Shown here: positions 1-14,364 of the stretch, in pieces | How the letters are laid out: every line of letters starts with the position of its first letter | Position numbering within the stretch: position 1 is the first letter of the stretch | Virus record (IMG/VR): IMGVR_UViG_3300006789_000158 | Span: 1-24,072 of that record | Length of the DNA stretch: 24,072 bases | Origin: a virus | Strand: one strand, 5' to 3' | Notes under the pieces: generated by a model | The model's input: the letters and a program-made list of their open reading frames with translations, nothing else | Told to the model about the DNA's origin: nothing | Databases searched by the model: none | Translations under genes and position numbers: made by a program

Positions 1-3000
1 CAAATGAAGTTACACCCGCTGCTTGTAATTGTAACTTTGTATTAGCCTCACTTGTTCCATCGAAAAATTTAGTAGTAGTTCCAAAAGTTGCCAATGGAAA
101 ATCAGGGTCTTGTCCTGATGAAGATATTGCCATTCCAGTATTAGTAAGAACAATTTGAGTTTCCATCGTATCAATGTTTGTTTGTGCTGCAGCCGCACTT
201 GCTGAAGCTGCATTTATACCATCCTCCGCTGAAGATGAATTTGCATTTATTGTTGAAGCAGCCGATGCTGAAAACTCATTAGCCGAACCACTAATTGATG
301 CCGCAGTTACTCCAGCTAAAGCACCAGTACTAATAGTAATATCACCTGTTATACCTAAACTACTTCCATCCCAAGTTAATTTATCACCTAAACTAAAACT
401 ACTACCACTATCTATATAAAACCCCGTATTTGAAGTTCCATATTCTCCAGCCCCAGTATAAAGTGCATTATCACTTACAGTTATTCCACCAATAAATCCA
501 CCTGATGCAGTAATTACACCTTCAATTTTTGCACCACTTGCAATAAGAACACCAGAAGATGATACTGCAAAATTAGTTCCAAATCTTACATAATAATTTG
601 AACCTGGAGTAAAGTCCATATAATACCCAGTAAGATCATTATTATCACCAGTTTTATAAATTCTTGAACTATCAGCATCTAAAGTTATATTACTTCCACT
701 AATAAGTCCATTATTTAAAATATTCCAACTACCAATATAACCTTCATTAGCTCTAATACTTCCACTAAGAAATACATTTTCTGCTGATAATCCGAATCCT
801 GGACTTGATTCATTATGTACTGCAGCAGTACTTGCTAATCCACTTAAATCTCCAAACCTTGCTCTCCTTAAAAATCCACCACTTCCAGATTCAATTACAT
901 CTATATATGGTGTTTCAGTATCGGTTGGGTCTGCATTTATATGTATAAATCCTGTTTGAGGGCGTCCAAAACTTATAATAACTTGTCCATCATCATATGA
1001 TGCTGATACAGAAGCGGCTCCACCAAAATTACCTATTGAACCTGTTACACTACCTTGTAATTCTCTTGTTACTGTAATTGCATTTATAAACCCAGTAGTA
1101 TTTCCAGTTTGATCTGACGCAGAATACGCTGCATTAAGTCTCATAAACTCTGAACTAAATCCTGTATCTCCTACTTTCTTAACAAATAATAATTCTCCTT
1201 GTTGAAATCCAGCTGAATTAACCAATGGAATTGTTGTAGCACTAGCGCTAACACTACCACTTATAGTTGTTGCATTACTAACAAGTAATTGTCCACCAAC
1301 TGCGTTTACAGTTTGTTTTTCAAATGTTGTTGTAGCAAGAGTACCACGAACATAAACATTACTAAATTCTGCAAATCCATCGCTATCAATAGTCCACCCA
1401 GATGCCTTCTTTGCATAATCTCTTGTTCTAATTGAACCAGTACTACTTAATATAATATTAGATGAACCTAAACTATTTTGCTCTATTCCCCAACCACCAA
1501 TATTACCAGCAGTACCACTTATATGTCCATCTGCTTTTACTTGAAAGTTTGAAGCGCTTATAAATAGTCCAGAATCGGTTGATGAATTTTCATCAGCATT
1601 TCCTCTTATATAAAAAGTATCTCCTGATAATTTTTCTCTACCAATATTAAATCCACCAATCTTACCTGTTTGCGCTTCGATATTTCCTTTTACAACAACA
1701 TCTCCACTTGAGGATAAATGAAAGTTAGATGAACTAATTTCTATATTTCCACCACTACCACTTACATATTGTTCTTCACTACCTAAGAAAAATGATTTTG
1801 CTTTTACCTCAAAAACACTTGGACTTGTTCTAAATTTAAGAGATCCCTCATCTCCACCAGCATGCAATTCTAAACCTAAACCATCATAATTTTCACTTGC
1901 ACCTATAGCAGTTCCAACACTACCACTAAACATTAATATACCAGAAGGACCTTCTCCTGTAGTTGCCCGCTTAAATCCCTCATATGATTTTGTTCTAAAA
2001 TATGCTGATGATTGTCCACTTATCTCAAATCCTTGTCCCTCACCAAGACTATTATTAATAGTTAAAGTTCCTGGTAAAATATTATCCGTTCCTGAAAATA
2101 CTGTATTACTTCCTTGAAATTGTTCAGCATTTGCTGAAAATGTTTCCATCTGAGCTTGCTTACCATCTTTAGTAAAATATTCTACTTTAAACAATAACCT
2201 TTGAGGTCTTTGACTTAACAATGGAGTATCAGTTGTTATTATTACATTATTTGGATTAAACCCTGATTCTCTAGCTTGCTTTAAAGATATTTCACTAATA
2301 TACCATTTACCTGAAGGAGCTACGAACTGTATAATTGGACGAGCTGTTGATTCTAATACAAAATTTTGATAAACCATTTTTGGAAATGTAATATTAGCAT
2401 CCACCCCTTTATCATCAGGATTTAAAGAACCAATAAAATATCCCCATGGGGTAGATTTAAACTCTTCGCCTATTTTTTTAGGTTTAACTCCTGAACCAGA
2501 TACGTAAACTTTTAATTCTGCTCTATCTTGATCTACTAAATTTTCATCTATTCTTACTTGTGTTGTTGCTTTTATAGGATGTGCATTAAATGATAAACTA
2601 TATTCTACATCTCTTATAATTAAAGGTCTATTTTCTCCAACTATATTGCCTTTTCCAGCTATATCTTTTGTTCTTGATGTATTTAACCAAAAAGCAACAT
2701 TATCATTTTCACTATAGTTTGAACCAGAAATAACTACTGCATCGTGAATATGACTTATAGTTGCTCTATCAAATCCTCCAACTGGTCCACTACCGACTAC
2801 TGCTCCTGAATAATATCCAGCATTTGTTCCTTGAGAGCCAGTCCAATATGTATCTACTATTGATCGGGTCGGGAAATACCCTTTCATCAAATTACCCTTT
2901 AATGATAAATCATCTATCAATTCTTCACGAGATTCTAAAATTCTTTCTGTTAATGGTATAAACTCAGTATCATTTGTTGTTCTATAATAAACTTTAGCTC

Positions 3001-6000
3001 TATAAACATCTCCTGAAAGTGTTCTTAAATTGGCAAGTTTAATTGTAGATTTAGATATATAATTTATTTCATTATAATCAAATTCTACAGTTTCATTAAA
3101 GCTCATAGTAAATGGAGATGGACCTAAATCAGGAATTTCTAATAACTGATATGCTAAACTTTCTACAGAATTATTAAATATTATAGGCTTTGATGACGGT
3201 ATTATAGTATGACCTTTAGTTTTACCTATAGTAAATTCATATGGTAAGTTTTGAGATACTAATTTAGAAACAGAATACCCGCTTTTGCCTGCGAATTCTC
3301 CCAGTTCGAATCTATCAACTTTTACTTTTGCTCCTTCTAAATAAGATCCAACTTCTCTGCCCGACCCATCCGGGTGCGGGTGCCCGTGCATACTACCACT
3401 CGGTAAAAATATTTTATAGTCATATACTGCAGGACTTGCTGCAGTCATGGAAGAATCATTTCTACCAGAAGCATTATCATCATAGTTACCATCATTATAG
3501 CTACTTCCACCGCCACCACCACCACCTTTGTTACCTTTATTTGTTTGAGCATCACTATGTTGCGTATCATCATATGTATCTTCTTCAGAAGTATTTGCGG
3601 TTGCCTTTAGTGATTCAATCTCCGTATCTATACAAGTAACATTATAATATGCGGTATTACTGCTTACTCCGGGAGCACCAACTGTTAAACCAATTGCTTT
3701 AAAGTCTACATCATCCGCAATAAATTGAGTATTTTTTCCATTTCCAATTACATAAATCTCATCATAATTGGTATCGTGTAAACTCCAAGTATAAGAAGTT
3801 AACCTAACTCCATACGTACTATAGTATTGTCTGTCTGCTGTTGTTCTTAAATCGTGCAGTCCAAATGCAAGAGACGCCGTTGCTTCGTGAATTGTTTCTA
3901 AATCATCAATCATTATATCGGTATCAGCTAATACTGGAACTGCTCCCCCTACTACATCAACAAATAAAGAACTGCTCGTACTAGATTTACCATTTGAATC
4001 TTTAACAACTACACTTGCAGTATAAGCACCAGATGCACCATATGCATGTGTTAAAGAAGTAGTAGATTCATCATTACCATCAAATGATACCCCTCCAGTT
4101 ATACCATCACCATATTCCACAAAATCACTCGTAGCATCTCCCCAAGCAATTGACATCTCGTCAATATACTTTTCACTCTCTGTAGTTGAACTTGCAGAAA
4201 CAATAAGTGTAAACGCTTGACTTGCAGTAACTGCGGTTGAACCTGAAATAGATGTTATAAGTGGTACTGCTGTATTTACAGTTATCGGTTGTCCCTTAAA
4301 TTCTTTTGTACCACCAGACCAATTAGCTACAATTCTGGGTTTAAAATTTCCTTGAGTTGAATATGTAGCAGTTGTAGTTTGTCCTGAAGCACTCATTTCT
4401 ACTTCACTAACTCCAGTAAATAATTTTTGACTGGTTGGACTTCCTTCACCATCTTCAGTAAATGTAACTGTAAGTGGTGCCGTTCCAGATGTTACATTTG
4501 AAGTTACATGAGGTCTTGGTGTAACTGCATTACTAACACTTTGTTTTATAACTGTATTTGATTTTCTTCCTGCTGTATCAACTACATAATGTTCAATATC
4601 AAAATTGCCCCCTGCACCATATGATGCAGAAACTGCTGACCCTGTTACTGATGTTGGGAATAGTTGAAATCCATCCCAATAAATTGTTTTGCCGCTTGAA
4701 TTTTTTGCTCCAACTCTAAATGAAGCATATTTTGTTCCTGGATGTAAAAATCTACTATGTACACTAAGTTTTGTCCAACCACTACTATTGATTTTAGTTA
4801 GATCACCTACTACTATATTTTGATGTACATCTCCTTCTTCACCAATTGTTTCATAGTTTGCATCTAATCCATACAATGACAAATAAGCAAATGTATTCTC
4901 AGAATCAGCTTTGGCATAAGCACTAACTGTAAATCCATCCGATTGAGTTGCTGGTGCGAGTGCGGCAGTACTACTTCCTCTATAATGTCCAAAAAAGCTA
5001 TCAGCTGCATTTGAAACTTGTGCTATAGCATTTGAACCACTATATGCTACTGAAGATTGTCTGGTTACACTTGCATTACCTACAGAATATCCGTCCCAAA
5101 ATCCACTTAAAGCACTTCCAAATATATTATTAGGTGCATAATTTATAAATTGACTACCAATTATTTGTGCTTTTTCAAAATACCAATGGAATTTATCAAG
5201 ACTTAAACCAGTACCAACTGTTGCACTTGAAGTAACATTAAAATTTACATCTGTATTAACTACTGAGTTTGATTGAGAAAAATCTGCTACTGCCGGCGTT
5301 GGTTGAACTTTTACAGTTTGAGCAGTACTATTAGTTTGAGTATTATAATTATTTCCTACAGTATGAGTAACTGTATAATCTCCACTTTCACTATATTCAT
5401 GTATTACTCTTTTACCTGCGGAACCTGTAACTACTAAACTTCTACCATCTCCAAAATCCCATTGAAATGTTGTATCATCAATATTATCATCAGGATTTGA
5501 AGCATCATCTGCACTAGCAGAATATATACTTCTATCTGTGAATCTAAATCTTGCTTTTGTAAAAATTGGGTTTGTAGAAATTTCTAAACTGCCCGTCAAA
5601 TACTGTGCTTCTTCTGATAATGCTTCATTTAAAGTACCATTAGATATAAACATACCAGCTTTTGGTGTAGCAGGTGGTGATACCGTAACTATAACGTTAT
5701 CTTTAGCCCCACCACCAAACGGTGAATTTCCAGTAGCTCTAACAGTATACGTCTGAGCTTTAGTATATGTATGAGAGCCATTAGTAGTTTGTGGATCAAA
5801 ACTATCAGTTGTAGAATCTCCCCATTCATATTCTACATTATTTATCGGTCCTACTCTATCTGCTATTAAATCAACTGTAAATTTGTTATTTCTTAAAACT
5901 CCAGTAGGTTTTGTATTATTAATAAATCGAAGTTCTAAATCAGAATGTGCTATTAAATTTGGATTTAAAAATTGTCGTACTCCACCAGGTATTCGTGATC

Positions 6001-6550
6001 CAGAAAGACTTCCGCTCACTAAAACATTTACTTCTTTTTGTCCTGTTTTAGGTATTACTTCTTGTAACATTGTTTCAGATATTGATAACTTTGGTGCTCT
6101 TAAAAATAAAATCTTTTCATTATTCGGTGAAGATGGATCTATCATTATTTCCATTTGATAACGAACATTATATACATCTTGAAATTCTTCTGGAATAACT
6201 AATCCATCATTCTGTTCTGGATTTGGATTTATTTCACCAAGTAATGTTAAAGTTGCTATTCCAGGAGTAACATCTTCATATACTTCTATACTTAATCTTC
6301 TTGAAGTACCTTCTAAATAATTTCGTATTGGATTTACATATACGGTTTTACCAGTTATATCAATTAATTCAAATAATATATCTGTTTCTCTTTTTAGCGC
6401 GGGAGAGCCATCAATTAATATAGATGATCTACCAGTAGGTATAATATCTGGAGCATCAAGGATTTTAAAATATTTATTATCTGTATCCTCAATAAATACT
6501 TGAACTTGATCTAAATTCTGTTTTTTAACTGTTTTCTTGAATAATGCCAT
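1..6550 (-). CDS. Giant modular tail fibre / adhesin-like virion protein (C-terminus beyond left edge)
   Basis: One open frame of at least 2183 codons runs from the ATG at 6548-6550 to the left edge without a stop; an in-frame TAA directly precedes the ATG, so the start is firm although no good Shine-Dalgarno is visible. Visible modules: a beta-rich N-terminus (about 1-210); PKD-like domains at about 219-290 (EWGD), 330-425 (WDFGDG, then HEYSESGDYTV), 668-760 and 774-864 (AWGD, then HAYGASGAYT); a CBM4/9-like jelly-roll at about 479-637, ending YWDGFQLF; a Gly run near residue 1010; an HGHPHPDG motif at 1055-1062; a beta-rich middle; then IGG-type repeats and Ala/Ser-rich sequence. PKD, Ig and CBM-like modules usually bind cell-surface glycans or space binding domains, so I infer a virion protein contacting the host, perhaps a central fibre or baseplate adhesin. 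The family is not identified. It lies behind its own late-type promoter, separate from the baseplate operon. Confidence 0.85.
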   Translation of the reverse strand, partial: MALFKKTVKKQNLDQVQVFIEDTDNKYFKILDAPDIIPTGRSSILIDGSPALKRETDILFELIDITGKTVYVNPIRNYLEGTSRRLSIEVYEDVTPGIATLTLLGEINPNPEQNDGLVIPEEFQDVYNVRYQMEIMIDPSSPNNEKILFLRAPKLSISETMLQEVIPKTGQKEVNVLVSGSLSGSRIPGGVRQFLNPNLIAHSDLELRFINNTKPTGVLRNNKFTVDLIADRVGPINNVEYEWGDSTTDSFDPQTTNGSHTYTKAQTYTVRATGNSPFGGGAKDNVIVTVSPPATPKAGMFISNGTLNEALSEEAQYLTGSLEISTNPIFTKARFRFTDRSIYSASADDASNPDDNIDDTTFQWDFGDGRSLVVTGSAGKRVIHEYSESGDYTVTHTVGNNYNTQTNSTAQTVKVQPTPAVADFSQSNSVVNTDVNFNVTSSATVGTGLSLDKFHWYFEKAQIIGSQFINYAPNNIFGSALSGFWDGYSVGNASVTRQSSVAYSGSNAIAQVSNAADSFFGHYRGSSTAALAPATQSDGFTVSAYAKADSENTFAYLSLYGLDANYETIGEEGDVHQNIVVGDLTKINSSGWTKLSVHSRFLHPGTKYASFRVGAKNSSGKTIYWDGFQLFPTSVTGSAVSASYGAGGNFDIEHYVVDTAGRKSNTVIKQSVSNAVTPRPHVTSNVTSGTAPLTVTFTEDGEGSPTSQKLFTGVSEVEMSASGQTTTATYSTQGNFKPRIVANWSGGTKEFKGQPITVNTAVPLITSISGSTAVTASQAFTLIVSASSTTESEKYIDEMSIAWGDATSDFVEYGDGITGGVSFDGNDESTTSLTHAYGASGAYTASVVVKDSNGKSSTSSSLFVDVVGGAVPVLADTDIMIDDLETIHEATASLAFGLHDLRTTADRQYYSTYGVRLTSYTWSLHDTNYDEIYVIGNGKNTQFIADDVDFKAIGLTVGAPGVSSNTAYYNVTCIDTEIESLKATANTSEEDTYDDTQHSDAQTNKGNKGGGGGGGSSYNDGNYDDNASGRNDSSMTAASPAVYDYKIFLPSGSMHGHPHPDGSGREVGSYLEGAKVKVDRFELGEFAGKSGYSVSKLVSQNLPYEFTIGKTKGHTIIPSSKPIIFNNSVESLAYQLLEIPDLGPSPFTMSFNETVEFDYNEINYISKSTIKLANLRTLSGDVYRAKVYYRTTNDTEFIPLTERILESREELIDDLSLKGNLMKGYFPTRSIVDTYWTGSQGTNAGYYSGAVVGSGPVGGFDRATISHIHDAVVISGSNYSENDNVAFWLNTSRTKDIAGKGNIVGENRPLIIRDVEYSLSFNAHPIKATTQVRIDENLVDQDRAELKVYVSGSGVKPKKIGEEFKSTPWGYFIGSLNPDDKGVDANITFPKMVYQNFVLESTARPIIQFVAPSGKWYISEISLKQARESGFNPNNVIITTDTPLLSQRPQRLLFKVEYFTKDGKQAQMETFSANAEQFQGSNTVFSGTDNILPGTLTINNSLGEGQGFEISGQSSAYFRTKSYEGFKRATTGEGPSGILMFSGSVGTAIGASENYDGLGLELHAGGDEGSLKFRTSPSVFEVKAKSFFLGSEEQYVSGSGGNIEISSSNFHLSSSGDVVVKGNIEAQTGKIGGFNIGREKLSGDTFYIRGNADENSSTDSGLFISASNFQVKADGHISGTAGNIGGWGIEQNSLGSSNIILSSTGSIRTRDYAKKASGWTIDSDGFAEFSNVYVRGTLATTTFEKQTVNAVGGQLLVSNATTISGSVSASATTIPLVNSAGFQQGELLFVKKVGDTGFSSEFMRLNAAYSASDQTGNTTGFINAITVTRELQGSVTGSIGNFGGAASVSASYDDGQVIISFGRPQTGFIHINADPTDTETPYIDVIESGSGGFLRRARFGDLSGLASTAAVHNESSPGFGLSAENVFLSGSIRANEGYIGSWNILNNGLISGSNITLDADSSRIYKTGDNNDLTGYYMDFTPGSNYYVRFGTNFAVSSSGVLIASGAKIEGVITASGGFIGGITVSDNALYTGAGEYGTSNTGFYIDSGSSFSLGDKLTWDGSSLGITGDITISTGALAGVTAASISGSANEFSASAASTINANSSSAEDGINAASASAAAAQTNIDTMETQIVLTNTGMAISSSGQDPDFPLATFGTTTKFFDGTSEANTKLQLQAAGVTSF
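456..1668 (-). repeat. Four diverged IGG-type protein repeats inside the adhesin gene
   Basis: Translating the adhesin frame gives four copies of a short pattern, roughly G-x-I-G-(G/S)-(F/W)-x-(I/V) followed by 5-7 residues and a Leu/Gly/Ser turn. They read GKIGGFNIG (about 1644-1668), GNIGGWGIE (about 1486-1512), GYIGSWNIL (about 717-743) and GFIGGITVS (about 476-502). Spacing is irregular (about 155, 770 and 240 bases) and the DNA is diverged, so these are structural repeats rather than a recent duplication. Similar repeats occur in tail-tip and fibre proteins of other phages; here they mark the fibrous distal half of the visible protein. Confidence 0.6.
3359..3391 (-). other. GC-rich patch encoding the His-x-His-x-His motif of the adhesin
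   Basis: Within an AT-rich gene, these 33 bases are about three quarters G+C (my count 25 of 33) and encode M-HGHPHPDG-SG using CAC, GGG and CCG codons that neighbouring codons avoid. H1055, H1057 and H1059 alternate in a beta-compatible HxHxH pattern. HxH motifs coordinate iron in tail spikes and in the T4 gp37 tip, so metal binding is possible. The motif follows a Gly-rich, probably flexible, stretch encoded at about 3515-3535. Confidence 0.5.
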
Positions 6551-6572
6551 TTAAATAGTTGTCCCATTTCAT

Positions 6573-6601
6573 TTATAATAAATATTAAAACTTTATTATA
6601 A
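6573..6601. promoter_or_regulatory. Perfect 10-bp inverted repeat, candidate operator
   Basis: TTATAATAAA (6573-6582) and TTTATTATAA (6592-6601) are exact reverse complements separated by 9 bases. The repeat sits in the divergent spacer between the ribbon-helix-helix gene and the giant adhesin gene, immediately downstream of the adhesin's late-type promoter. Ribbon-helix-helix proteins commonly bind paired half-sites in their own promoter regions, so this is a natural operator candidate. It is composed only of A and T, so a chance palindrome or a weak RNA hairpin in the adhesin leader remains possible. Confidence 0.5.
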
Positions 6602-6604
6602 GTA

Positions 6605-6612
6605 TATTTATA
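6605..6612 (-). promoter_or_regulatory. T4-type late promoter for the adhesin gene
   Basis: The plus strand reads TATTTATA, giving an exact TATAAATA on the minus strand, the T4 late-promoter element recognised by the gp55-type sigma factor. It lies 54 bases upstream of the adhesin ATG and points at it, which would give an untranslated leader of nearly 50 bases containing the inverted repeat. The octamer also occurs by chance elsewhere in this AT-rich window, so position and orientation carry the call. Confidence 0.6.
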
Positions 6613-6617
6613 GTGTG

Positions 6618-6623
6618 TATAAT
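6618..6623 (+). promoter_or_regulatory. Possible -10 box for the ribbon-helix-helix gene
   Basis: A perfect TATAAT stands 10 bases before the ATG at 6634. The hexamer at a 17-base spacing upstream (6595-6600, ATTATA) is a poor -35 and lies within the right arm of the inverted repeat. Use of this box would start the transcript about 4 bases before the ATG, a nearly leaderless message. If transcription starts further upstream, the GGAT at 6624-6627 could act as a weak Shine-Dalgarno. Confidence 0.35.
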
Positions 6624-6633
6624 GGATGTATAA

Positions 6634-6810
6634 ATGAAAAAAAGATATAATTTTACGTTAGATGAGTCTGTAAAGACTATTTTGGAGTATTATGCTAAAG
6701 AAAATTTTACTACAATGTCTGCAGTATTAACTTCTTTAATTTTGGAATTACAATCAAAAAAGATTGTTTATGGTAATAAATTACCTTCTAAGAGGATTTC
6801 CCAAAACTAA
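6634..6810 (+). CDS. Small ribbon-helix-helix (Arc/CopG-type) DNA-binding protein, putative repressor
   Basis: This 58-aa protein is the only plus-strand gene in the window. Its fold reads directly: a basic strand MKKRYNFTLD (1-10), helix A ESVKTILEYYAKENF (11-25), the TTMS turn, then helix B AVLTSLILELQSKK (30-43) and a short basic tail. This is the strand-helix-helix layout of Arc/CopG/MetJ repressors, which dimerise and insert the paired strand into the DNA major groove. The gene is divergent from the giant adhesin gene, with an inverted repeat and promoter elements in the 83-bp spacer. It converges on the nuclease-ATPase gene, whose last 23 bases it overlaps. I infer autoregulation and/or control of the adhesin promoter; neither is shown by sequence alone. 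Fold confidence is good; target and role are inferred. Confidence 0.75.
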   Translation: MKKRYNFTLDESVKTILEYYAKENFTTMSAVLTSLILELQSKKIVYGNKLPSKRISQN

Positions 6811-9800
6811 TATTGCTGTATCCATGTTCTTTCTTTATTTCTAATAAAGTATCTACAGCATCTCTCATAGATTCTATATGTGATACAATAACAACAAATT
6901 GAAATTGAGATTTTAAATATTGAAAAAAACTATAAACAGAATTTAAATTTTCACTATCCATAGTTCCAAATCCCTCATCTATAGCGAGAAAATTACCTCT
7001 TGGTAAATTACAAACATTAATTAACCCTACTCTAAGAGCTAATGATGATATAAATTTTTCCATACCACTTGATAATTCTAAAGGCCACACATTATCTTCA
7101 TCATACACAATATAGTTATTAATACTCTTACCATCCATTTTAAATATAATGCTGAAATCAACAATCTGTGATAATATATTATTAACTTCCCCTTCAATAG
7201 TCGGTAGTGCATCTTGTATTAAATTATATGGAACTCCATCTCTACTTACCGCTTGTAAATAATAATGATACGCTCCTATCGTATCCTCTAATTCTTCCAT
7301 TTTAGTAATATTATCAAACAATGTTTTTATTTGTGTTTCTAAAATAGCTACTGTTTTTCCCCTATTATATTTTTTAGCAGTATGATCTTTTATCTTAGAA
7401 TCTACCACTTGTATTTCTGATTCTACTAACTCTATTTTAGATAAAATATCTTTATTAAATTTTATAGATTTTTCTTGTCTTTCAAACTTTGTTATATCTT
7501 TTAAAACATATTGTTTACTTTGTTTAACATTCTTACCTTTTTCAATAATAACATCTTTTTGATGGTGTACTGATTCTAATTTTGCTTCTTCTTCAAATAT
7601 ACTTTTAGTAATAATATCATATTTAGATTGTATTTCAGTATACTCTTTGACTACTTTTCGTAAATCTCCAGCCTCTTTTATATATTGAGTTTGTAAATGT
7701 TTATTATGTGTTATAGTATCTATTGCATTTTTAGCATCTTTTACAAATGGATTAGTTAAACAAGCTTCACACGTTTCATTCCATTCCCAACTCTGTAATT
7801 TATCTATAGCTTTTTGTTCTACATCTATTTGATTTTCTAATGTTAATAACAATTTTTCATAATTTTCTAAGTCTCGTTTTTTATTGCCAACTTCTTCAAT
7901 ATCTAATTTTTTTATTTTTTTATTTTTTAAAGTATCCAATAATTCTTTTGTATTAACTATAGATTTTTCTAATGAAATATATTGATCTCTTAATATACCT
8001 GTTTCATCTTTTAATATATTTAATTCTTCTTTTAATTTTTCAATATCTTTTACATCTTCTATTGGTTTTAATTTAGAAGTAAATTCTTTTTTAGATTCTT
8101 CAAACTTTTCTTTTTGTTCTTCATACTCACTTAACTTTTCATTAATTAACTTCAGATCAATTTTATTAGATTTCAATTGACTTCTAGCTTCAGTTAATTC
8201 ATCTTCATAATTAGATTGTTGAAAGTTTTTTAGTAAAACAGATTCTTCTTTAACTCTCTCACTTGCCATTTGATATAATTTATCAAACACCCCAATACCC
8301 ATAAATTGAGCTAATAATTCTTTCTTTTCTTTCTGAGTTTTATCTATGAATACTCCTGATGAATTATTTTGAGTAGACAATGTAGTTAAAATAAAATCGT
8401 CATATGTTCCTAATACTCTACGAATATTATTGTTTGTAGTTCTCCTTTGATCACCGTTCATAGAAACCATTTGTTGTAACTCTGTATCCCAACGTTCAAA
8501 GTTAACATCTACTTTAACATGCCCATTTAAAAGTCGTTTTCCTTTTCTTTCAACATAATAATCTGTTCCATCTATTTCTATATTAAGTTTACATCTAAAA
8601 TCTGATTTTTTATTGTTCAATATCATATCAGCTTTAAATGCTCTACTACAAGTATCAAATAAACAAAAAGATAGTGCATCTAATAATGATGATTTACCAC
8701 TTGCATTTGGAGCAAAAATTCCTATTATACCACTTAATCTAGTAAAATCAACTATATTAGTTTTACCATAAGAAAACATATTATCAAATTCAAACTTTTT
8801 AATTTTCCAATTAATATTCCTTTGAATATCTTCTTCTGGTAAAATTTGATTTAACTCATTGTTTATTTCTTGTAATTGTATTTCAAGATTATCATCTATA
8901 AAAAATTCTTTTTTAATATAATCTAATATTAATTTATTTTGATAATCTACGTTAGATACATCTCCTATACTAATCTTTTTAGCTTCATCTCCTAAATTAA
9001 TAACACTATCTACTTTATAAAGTTTACTCTCTGTTAATTTAGGATATTTATCTTTAACAATAGAAAGCACTTTTTTTATTTGAGTTTCAGTTGTATTTTT
9101 ACATCGTAACCGTAACCTTCCTTTCTCTGGAAGGGCATCCCAATCTTTTGGTAAATTTCCATCAATAATATCAAGAGTAGCATATCCAAAATCATTTGGT
9201 ATTTCTATATGCTCAAAACTCTTATTCTTCACATCCCAAACAGATACTCCGTGCCCATACACCGCTTCACCATAATTTTGTTGAACAAGACTACCACAAT
9301 ATCTTACGTGGGGCTTTTTATTAACATTATCATATTCTTGTAATGTTTGCATTTTATGAATATCCCCAAGCAAAACCATATCATATCCATCCATACTTTC
9401 TAATTTAACTTTAGATGGTAACTTAAATCCTAAATCTGTAGCTGATTGATCAACAGTACCGTGATATAATAATACTTTAGTATCTCCTTCTACATCTTTT
9501 GCTTGAATATAATTCTCTTCTGTATCCCAAACATCCCATACTACAAATGTTATATCTGCAAAATTATAAACACCACTATCTTTAAAATAATATAAATTTG
9601 GATGATTAAGATTCTCTACAATTGGTGTAAGAACATCAAGCCTATGTGTATTATTTAAATTACAGTCGTGGTTTCCTGCTATAATAATAGTTGGAACAAT
9701 ATCAGAAAGATTTTTGAATAATCTTGATAATTGATCTACCAATTCTGGCGACATTTCAGTTTTACTATGTGCGATATCACCACCTATATAAACTACACTA

Positions 9801-9955
9801 TCTTCAGGATTCTTTTTTATTATTTCATATAATTTATTAAACGCATCTTCAAATTCGGAATGACGATGTAGATTTCGTATTTGTATGTCCGATATATGAT
9901 ATATTCTTTTTACTACATTTAAATTAGTTTTTATAATATGTTTTTGATTTTTCAA
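6788..9955 (-). CDS. gp47-gp46: Fused Mre11-Rad50 type recombination nuclease-ATPase (gp47-gp46 / SbcD-SbcC like)
   Basis: The 1055-aa protein joins two normally separate subunits. Residues about 17-340 are a calcineurin-type phosphoesterase with metal-ligand motifs HISDIQ (D23), GGDIAH (D60, H63), GNHD (94-97), YHG (H165) and GDIH (197-200). From about 385 comes an SMC/Rad50 ATPase: Walker A APNASGKS (415-422), long coiled coils (about 560-900) flanking a zinc-hook CEAC (C729, C732), signature LSSGMEK (about 960) and Walker B FLAIDEGFG (about 990), then a switch-type VSHIE. In T4, gp47 and gp46 form the complex that resects DNA ends for recombination-dependent replication; the same role is inferred. 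The first in-frame start after a stop is TTG at 9953-9955, since no ATG precedes the phosphoesterase motifs; it overlaps the primase gene by 32 bases. Walker A has Ala in place of its first Gly. Confidence 0.92.
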   Translation of the reverse strand: MKNQKHIIKTNLNVVKRIYHISDIQIRNLHRHSEFEDAFNKLYEIIKKNPEDSVVYIGGDIAHSKTEMSPELVDQLSRLFKNLSDIVPTIIIAGNHDCNLNNTHRLDVLTPIVENLNHPNLYYFKDSGVYNFADITFVVWDVWDTEENYIQAKDVEGDTKVLLYHGTVDQSATDLGFKLPSKVKLESMDGYDMVLLGDIHKMQTLQEYDNVNKKPHVRYCGSLVQQNYGEAVYGHGVSVWDVKNKSFEHIEIPNDFGYATLDIIDGNLPKDWDALPEKGRLRLRCKNTTETQIKKVLSIVKDKYPKLTESKLYKVDSVINLGDEAKKISIGDVSNVDYQNKLILDYIKKEFFIDDNLEIQLQEINNELNQILPEEDIQRNINWKIKKFEFDNMFSYGKTNIVDFTRLSGIIGIFAPNASGKSSLLDALSFCLFDTCSRAFKADMILNNKKSDFRCKLNIEIDGTDYYVERKGKRLLNGHVKVDVNFERWDTELQQMVSMNGDQRRTTNNNIRRVLGTYDDFILTTLSTQNNSSGVFIDKTQKEKKELLAQFMGIGVFDKLYQMASERVKEESVLLKNFQQSNYEDELTEARSQLKSNKIDLKLINEKLSEYEEQKEKFEESKKEFTSKLKPIEDVKDIEKLKEELNILKDETGILRDQYISLEKSIVNTKELLDTLKNKKIKKLDIEEVGNKKRDLENYEKLLLTLENQIDVEQKAIDKLQSWEWNETCEACLTNPFVKDAKNAIDTITHNKHLQTQYIKEAGDLRKVVKEYTEIQSKYDIITKSIFEEEAKLESVHHQKDVIIEKGKNVKQSKQYVLKDITKFERQEKSIKFNKDILSKIELVESEIQVVDSKIKDHTAKKYNRGKTVAILETQIKTLFDNITKMEELEDTIGAYHYYLQAVSRDGVPYNLIQDALPTIEGEVNNILSQIVDFSIIFKMDGKSINNYIVYDEDNVWPLELSSGMEKFISSLALRVGLINVCNLPRGNFLAIDEGFGTMDSENLNSVYSFFQYLKSQFQFVVIVSHIESMRDAVDTLLEIKKEHGYSNISFGKSS

Positions 9956-13650: not shown

Positions 13651-14283
13651 CTAACTATTTGCACTTACAGTTACACTAATTGTTTGAGATGCTCCAGAAT
13701 CATTCCCAAAAATAGTCAACTGTGTTGTAATTGCTGATGTAGTTGCTTTGGATACTATATTAACAACTTTACCTATTACTGTAGTACTTCTCTTCCTATC
13801 AGCATCACTAAGGAATACTGGAACAGTTCCACCTCGTTGTTCAACCCCACCACCTGCAGATACAAACAAATCTGCTGCATTCGAATTATGTAATATAAAT
13901 GTATATCCACCTTTTCCATCATTACCATTAGTTGTTGCTGGTGATATAATCTGTTGTTCATTTGCGGTTGTAAATGTTAATGCTGAACTTGCCAACTTAA
14001 TAACAGGTAATTTAACTGTATTTTTTGGTAAAGTAACAAGTTTGTATCTCATTATCTGATTCTCATCTGGAATAGCCTCAAGTAACGGCATATTTTCTAT
14101 AGCCGCTCCATATGAATTAGTTCCATCTGGGTGAGAAACATCATAGAGACCATAATCAATTTCATCATCTCCTAATGCAAATTTTGTAATTTTAAATTCA
14201 TTATTTCCACGTGCCAATAATTCTCTACCTTTTTTGGTAAGAATAGCATCTATGGTTTGCGTGGTATTATCTAAAAATCCCAT
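13651..14283 (-). CDS. Tail/baseplate-associated structural protein (210 aa)
   Basis: The 210-aa protein begins MGFLDNTTQTIDAILTKKGR and continues ELLARGNNEFKITKFALGDDEIDYGLYD. I recognise this N-terminus as recurrent in marine myophage structural clusters but cannot attach a function. The rest is beta-rich and ends in a TISVTVS strand that looks like a small Ig-like domain (about 115-210). It is the first gene after an 81-base spacer and has a strong SD (TTAGGAGT), so it may head a transcription unit with the two following paralogous genes. Confidence 0.65.
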   Translation of the reverse strand: MGFLDNTTQTIDAILTKKGRELLARGNNEFKITKFALGDDEIDYGLYDVSHPDGTNSYGAAIENMPLLEAIPDENQIMRYKLVTLPKNTVKLPVIKLASSALTFTTANEQQIISPATTNGNDGKGGYTFILHNSNAADLFVSAGGGVEQRGGTVPVFLSDADRKRSTTVIGKVVNIVSKATTSAITTQLTIFGNDSGASQTISVTVSANS

Positions 14284-14364
14284 TATTTACTCCTAAGTAT
14301 ATTTGGTTTTCGTATATAACTGCGTTTACTCTACTATAAATATAATAATAAAATATATTATACA
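14284..14364 (-). promoter_or_regulatory. AT-rich 81-bp spacer with possible promoter for the 210-aa gene
   Basis: This is the longest gap in the structural operon. On the minus strand it holds a perfect TATAAT (14357-14362), an A/T-only run, and a good SD (AGGAG) before the ATG at 14283. No convincing -35 box or exact minus-strand TATAAATA is present, and no stem-loop with a T-run follows the 1151-aa gene. A promoter here is plausible but weakly supported. Confidence 0.3.

Follow-up and report, generated by a model that had tools for sequence, protein, structure and literature searches.

This analysis concerns a stretch of DNA (the window) of 24,072 nucleotides, which is a 24-kb IMG/VR virus record. 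Nearly all of its genes are located on the minus strand, among them baseplate genes coding for a gp25-like protein and wedge subunits. The window also encodes a RusA-like resolvase, a primase, a fused SbcD-SbcC protein and a large PKD-domain protein. Its only well-supported plus-strand gene is an ORF of 58 amino acid residues, which codes for a ribbon-helix-helix (RHH) protein and is oriented divergently from the large PKD-domain gene. The following features are located at or bear on this locus:

2-6550, minus strand: large adhesin-type gene with a PKD domain (Pfam PKD, E 4e-16), cut by the contig end
6571-6588, minus strand: promoter-like adhesin box TTAATATTTATTATAAAT (core TATTTATT, 6584-6577), assigned by matrix score; predicted start near 6574
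6573-6601: exact inverted repeat with arms at 6573-6582 and 6592-6601; exact only in the window and in its two nearest relatives, L183 and L184
6603-6614, plus strand: promoter-like RHH box TATATTTATAGT (TATATTTA at 6603-6610), a 12-mer repeated before gene 13651-14283; predicted start near 6615
6605-6612, minus strand: TATAAATA, reverse complement of part of the RHH box TATATTTATAGT
6613-6633, plus strand: candidate RHH operator, direct repeats GTGTGTATAA (6613-6622) and GGATGTATAA (6624-6633), 11 bp apart
6618-6623, plus strand: TATAAT within the repeated leader, 10 bp before the RHH ATG
6634-6810, plus strand: gene for the 58-aa RHH (CopG/Arc-type) protein, kept in 58 other IMG/VR contigs
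6788-9955, minus strand: fused SbcD-SbcC-like gene (Metallophos and AAA_23/SMC_N; phrog_77 and phrog_100)
14329-14346, minus strand: yardstick box ATTATATTTATAGTAGAG before structural gene 13651-14283 (13.3 bits)

The initial annotation had described the 58-aa ORF, the large ORF running leftwards from 6550, the 83-bp spacer between them (6551-6633), the 10-bp inverted repeat, the minus-strand TATAAATA and the plus-strand TATAAT, and all of these elements are present at these positions. In relatives the adhesin-type protein reaches 4103-4329 aa. The neighbouring SbcD and SbcC homologues are joined in one protein of 1055 aa, which is found in about 110 viral contigs from marine and freshwater sources; its best annotated match is a protein of Microcystis phage Mel-JY01 (39%). 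A megablast search with the window and a tblastn search with the RHH protein returned nothing from cultured phages, and no close cultured relative was found. The phage gene is 97% identical in L186 (PCAX01000028.1), a contig placed in a MAG labelled Chloroflexi and probably a misbinned phage contig.

Counting the window and the 57 contigs whose spacer is resolved, the RHH gene is divergent from an adhesin-type gene at 58 loci, which comprise 45 distinct spacers. At all 58 of these loci the 3' ends of the RHH and SbcD-SbcC genes overlap tail to tail by 4-27 nt (6788-6810 in the window), and one further locus (L038) encodes a diverged small protein at the place of the RHH gene. The joint conservation of gene, palindrome and promoter among related phages, suggested in the initial annotation as a check, was confirmed for the small gene with its large divergent neighbour across 58 contigs and, in most relatives, for the divergent boxes described below; the palindrome is not conserved. 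In most pairs, substitutions in the RHH gene are found mainly at codon position 3, which indicates that the protein sequence is under purifying selection. Synteny and this codon-position pattern rule out a spurious small ORF.

The affiliation of the protein was derived from profile and fold comparisons. All 19 aligned RHH members matched phrog_3180, an Arc-like repressor, with a best E of 4e-8 and 0.01 for the window protein alone. CopG was the first PDB match of the RHH family profile (E 0.0014), and Pfam returned no match for the window protein alone. In the alignment-based model, a monomer in which the strand is not formed since it forms only in the dimer, helices at residues 11-23 and 28-41 (pLDDT ~90) follow the extended residues 1-10; a single-sequence AlphaFold model merged both helices, and the alignment-based model kept them apart. 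The top Foldseek matches were CopG and then other RHH proteins, all at E values of 0.05 or more, the protein being small. Family profile, phrog_3180 and fold matches therefore agree with the initial designation as a ribbon-helix-helix protein, and by its sequence the 58-aa protein affiliates with the CopG/Arc type, likely representing a new branch of RHH autoregulators. Residues 4, 6 and 8, which we take to align with the DNA-contacting strand residues of CopG and Arc, are R4, N6 and T8 in the A/B proteins and K4, S6 and T8 in the C proteins; they are predicted from the alignment to face the DNA. This protein face and the leader of the gene change together, in what is essentially one contrast between clades.

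The late promoter of phage T4 is TATAAATA, used with gp55, gp33 and gp45, and has the form NATAAATA in cyanophages. The minus-strand TATAAATA at 6605-6612 had been read as such a promoter in front of the adhesin gene. The window contains the motif 6 times, where 8.0 occurrences would be expected, hence its mere presence means nothing. The 12-mer TATATTTATAGT, in contrast to an expectation of 0.06, occurs exactly twice: the copy at 6603-6614 (+) precedes the RHH gene, and the one at 14333-14344 (-) precedes gene 13651-14283, whose direction is unambiguous. Strand counts in related genomes point the same way. In pieces of four of them, ATATTTAT was the enriched upstream word on the sense strand (34 regions versus 5 for its complement), and ATATTTATA was present in 30 sense regions versus 1 antisense region when the RHH locus was left out and Mel-JY01 included. 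Within 70 nt upstream of gene starts, the sense strand of four relatives carries TATTTATW 40 times versus WATAAATA 8 times; T4, the positive control, gave 11 WATAAATA in the same 70-nt windows, mostly at 32-36 nt, versus 5 TATTTATW. The refined box, TATATTTATATATGA, is located on the sense strand before structural genes of relatives, e.g. the L122 tail tube gene and the MGFLNNT gene, and ATATTTATATATGA was found in 14 of the 14 orthologous MGFL leaders of the C group. A similar polarity is seen in the relatives that do not carry the RHH gene (L039-L094), in which the gap between the SbcD-SbcC 3' end and the next tail gene is mostly 16-55 nt: of 25 such loci, 21 have sense TATTTAT before this tail gene and 2 have sense WATAAATA. 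There, TATTTAT is sometimes found at 12-24 nt from the ATG, and a distance as short as 12 nt suggests leaderless mRNAs, provided that the box is a promoter.

The T4 sigma factor gp55 (phrog_234) found no match in the 15 related records searched, mostly fragments, nor in Mel-JY01; the same search recovered T4 gp55 at 2.5e-70. The proposed T4-type late promoter before the adhesin gene is contradicted by the sense counts (TATTTATW over WATAAATA) and by the missing gp55 match, and on these grounds, with gp55 lacking in the searched records, it was rejected as the promoter of this locus. Two face-to-face late promoters in the spacers were likewise rejected on the opposite polarity in the sense-strand counts. 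Since TATAAATA is the complement of a plus-strand box and TATATTTATATATGA is found in the sense orientation in relatives, the spacer is better described by back-to-back overlapping promoters than by a T4-type late promoter. A literature search gave no paper combining phage, late promoter and TATTTAT.

The boxes were scored with a position-weight matrix trained without the RHH locus, whose consensus, TATATTTA, is TAnnTTTG-like. The adhesin box of the window reaches 8.6 bits (shuffle p 0.06-0.13); in most relatives it scores 9-16 bits, with many p values of 0.02 or less. The window copy of the RHH box is weak (5.6 bits, shuffle p ~0.3), as are RHH-side boxes in many relatives, where they usually read TATTTATTATATG plus extra bases, and its assignment was made on the identity of the 12-mers in the window and on its conserved position. 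Both divergent boxes and their separation of 20-21 bp, sometimes 24 bp, are kept in most relatives. In flavobacteria, TAnnTTTG sits at -12 to -5 (PMC9723704), and from this placement transcription would start near 6615 (+) and 6574 (-). The predicted start sites would be about 41 bp apart, so that polymerase footprints would overlap and the occupancy of one promoter should reduce that of the other. The TATAAT at 6618-6623 was discarded as a promoter of the RHH gene because its location inside the repeated leader, 10 bp from the ATG, provides no room for a leader before the start codon.

The role as operator that had been assigned to the palindrome could not be maintained. Perfect inverted repeats of at least 10 bp appeared in 3.8% of dinucleotide shuffles of the AT-rich spacer, which makes the palindrome marginal against chance. 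According to the initial annotation, the loss of the palindrome in phages that keep the gene would speak against such an operator, and this was observed in the sister phages L179 and L182: their RHH protein is 66-67% identical and their longest inverted repeat measures 5 bp. In other relatives the longest inverted repeat usually coincides with the box pair, with a loop of 17-23. The exact palindrome consists of both divergent boxes viewed jointly.

The leader of the RHH gene is conserved. Across 35 distinct C-group spacers, mean identity is 0.90 in the 30 nt upstream of the RHH ATG and 0.51 in the 30 nt upstream of the adhesin ATG; the late-type MGFL leader of the same C-group contigs has a mean identity of 0.67. 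The C-group leader has no clear repeat and includes the Shine-Dalgarno sequence. The window belongs to the A/B group, and its candidate operator (6613-6633) is located between the predicted start site and the RHH ATG. A lag of 11 gave the best self-match in 9 of 10 distinct A/B leaders (mean 0.63 versus 0.20-0.44 at other lags), the A/B leaders being non-independent and the repeat p of single leaders modest (0.01-0.5). Among the group B phages, some have an 11-bp repeat pattern that continues upstream into the RHH box. As the likely Shine-Dalgarno sequence is overlapped by the second repeat, part of the repeat conservation may serve translation. No second strong operator-like site was found outside the RHH locus in the window and in the searched pieces of G001, G003, G004 and G006, and the strongest 11-bp-repeat site is located only at the RHH locus in the window, G004 and G006. 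The adhesin side and the centre of the spacer showed no conserved sequence beyond the boxes. Elsewhere, in L024, L028, L029, L031, L034 and L036, arrays of short direct repeats of the AACAAGTA type are located just before the start codon of the RusA-like gene.

The most probable reading, to which we assign a probability of about 0.6, is that the RHH protein represses its own gene via the leader at divergent, overlapping promoters. The spacer would consist of a pair of such promoters of the clade's own type (TATATTTATATATGA, a TAnnTTTR-like -7 box, no -35), with the RHH gene transcribed rightwards from one and the giant adhesin gene leftwards from the other, presumably late in infection. Autorepression is indicated by the conserved leader and the repeats; the RHH protein most likely restrains its own expression through binding to the leader, in the A/B group at the 11-bp direct repeats, and self-regulation is its likeliest role. 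Through the overlap of the promoters, self-repression could also favour the adhesin promoter, and the RHH protein may gate this promoter indirectly. A more far-reaching version is tentative and in our view stands well below an even chance: a single-target repressor within the virion-gene programme that, by shutting its own promoter, would release the divergent adhesin promoter, a late promoter of the clade's own, and would thereby time or dose the adhesin separately from the baseplate genes throughout this large clade of marine phages.

Other explanations, not all of which are mutually exclusive, have to be weighed against self-repression at overlapping promoters. Direct control of both genes, in which the RHH protein would bind the leader and the inter-box DNA cooperatively and act on the adhesin gene as a genuine repressor or activator, is in line with the fixed inter-box spacing and with a divergent pairing to the adhesin gene that is conserved and exclusive. 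The repeat pattern reaching into the RHH box in some group B phages fits this as well. However, beyond the boxes the adhesin side and the centre of the spacer hold no conserved sequence, and we consider direct dual control unlikely. Far less room is left for the original combination of a T4-type late promoter TATAAATA (-) driving the adhesin gene and an RHH protein that gates it from the palindrome. The named elements do exist in the spacer, and an inward-facing WATAAATA is kept in most spacers; it is kept because the divergent boxes read as WATAAATA on the complementary strand. The strand statistics favour TATTTAT in sense, no gp55 family match was obtained, the sisters L179 and L182 have no palindrome, the adhesin side of the spacer is conserved no further than the box, and the relatives without the RHH gene keep sense TATTTAT and not WATAAATA. 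This combination is accordingly most improbable.

TATTTAT could instead act at the RNA level, as an mRNA or translation signal, with the RHH gene controlled post-transcriptionally and the C-group GGAGATTATCGGT leader serving as an RNA element. The short distances to the ATG in the relatives without the RHH gene (12-24 nt), which would produce leaderless mRNAs if the box were a promoter, and the inclusion of the Shine-Dalgarno sequence in the C-group conservation are in line with such a role. It seems quite unlikely nonetheless, as the box fits the -7 part of TTGAC-N18/19-TAnnTTTA promoters in the same genomes and the flavobacterial sigmaA consensus TAnnTTTG (PMC9723704). Lastly, the RHH gene might act mainly as an antisense element whose transcript enters the SbcD-SbcC 3' end and lowers nuclease expression late in infection. 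The tail-to-tail overlap is found at every one of the 58 loci and no terminator was found between both genes in the window, but overlaps are common among compact phage genes and the RHH protein is under purifying selection, which makes an antisense function improbable.

Several components of self-repression at overlapping promoters have counterparts in known systems. CopG, a plasmid RHH repressor, and Arc/Mnt of phage P22 resemble the 58-aa protein in size and in the order strand-helix-helix, and are its closest profile and fold matches. Differences are the low sequence similarity (E 0.0014), the candidate site, here a tandem direct repeat at 11 bp, and the context, here the virion gene region of a lytic-type phage with the RHH gene divergent from an adhesin gene. 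T4 and cyanophage late promoters share with the boxes a lone AT-rich -10-like element before virion genes and the missing -35. In contrast, the box at this locus reads TATATTTATATATGA in sense and thus has the opposite polarity to TATAAATA, without a gp55 match. Compared to the Bacteroidetes sigmaA promoter (TTG / TAnnTTTG), the TAnnTTT core is common to both, whereas the boxes of the locus are without TTGAC and carry a conserved downstream extension, TATATGA. Plasmid pLS20 has a regulator gene back to back with an operon at overlapping divergent promoters (PMC4207663), an arrangement similar to that of the RHH locus; pLS20 is described there as a switch with DNA looping, of which no sign was observed at the RHH locus. 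RHH autoregulators and overlapping divergent promoters beside a regulator are known; new in detail are the box of the clade and its conserved combination of the RHH gene with a giant adhesin gene. Simple motif matching easily leads to a strand error at this locus, which the analysis corrects: TATAAATA is the exact reverse complement of the clade's TATTTATA box. The analysis also yields a promoter model that can be tested for this uncultured clade of marine phages. In this compact, conserved regulator-adhesin pair, the dose of the giant host-contact protein could be adjusted through self-repression together with the overlap of the promoters.

A candidate late sigma factor of the clade is a protein of about 235 aa encoded in four relatives with 56-58% identity (L120:2589-3293, L116:16024-16707, L111:17834-18523 and L126:18558-19235 on the minus strand). 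It shows weak hints of sigma region 2 and a C-terminal IREMTGSNTQHITRVI stretch, and gave no alignment with gp55. TTGAC-N18/19-TAnnTTTA promoters are located before other, small genes of relatives (L108-L121; G001, G004, G006). As this is a Bacteroidetes pattern, it provides a lead towards a Bacteroidetes host of the clade. Many genes of G001, G004 and G006 carry AGGAG Shine-Dalgarno sequences, which are unusual for Bacteroidetes.
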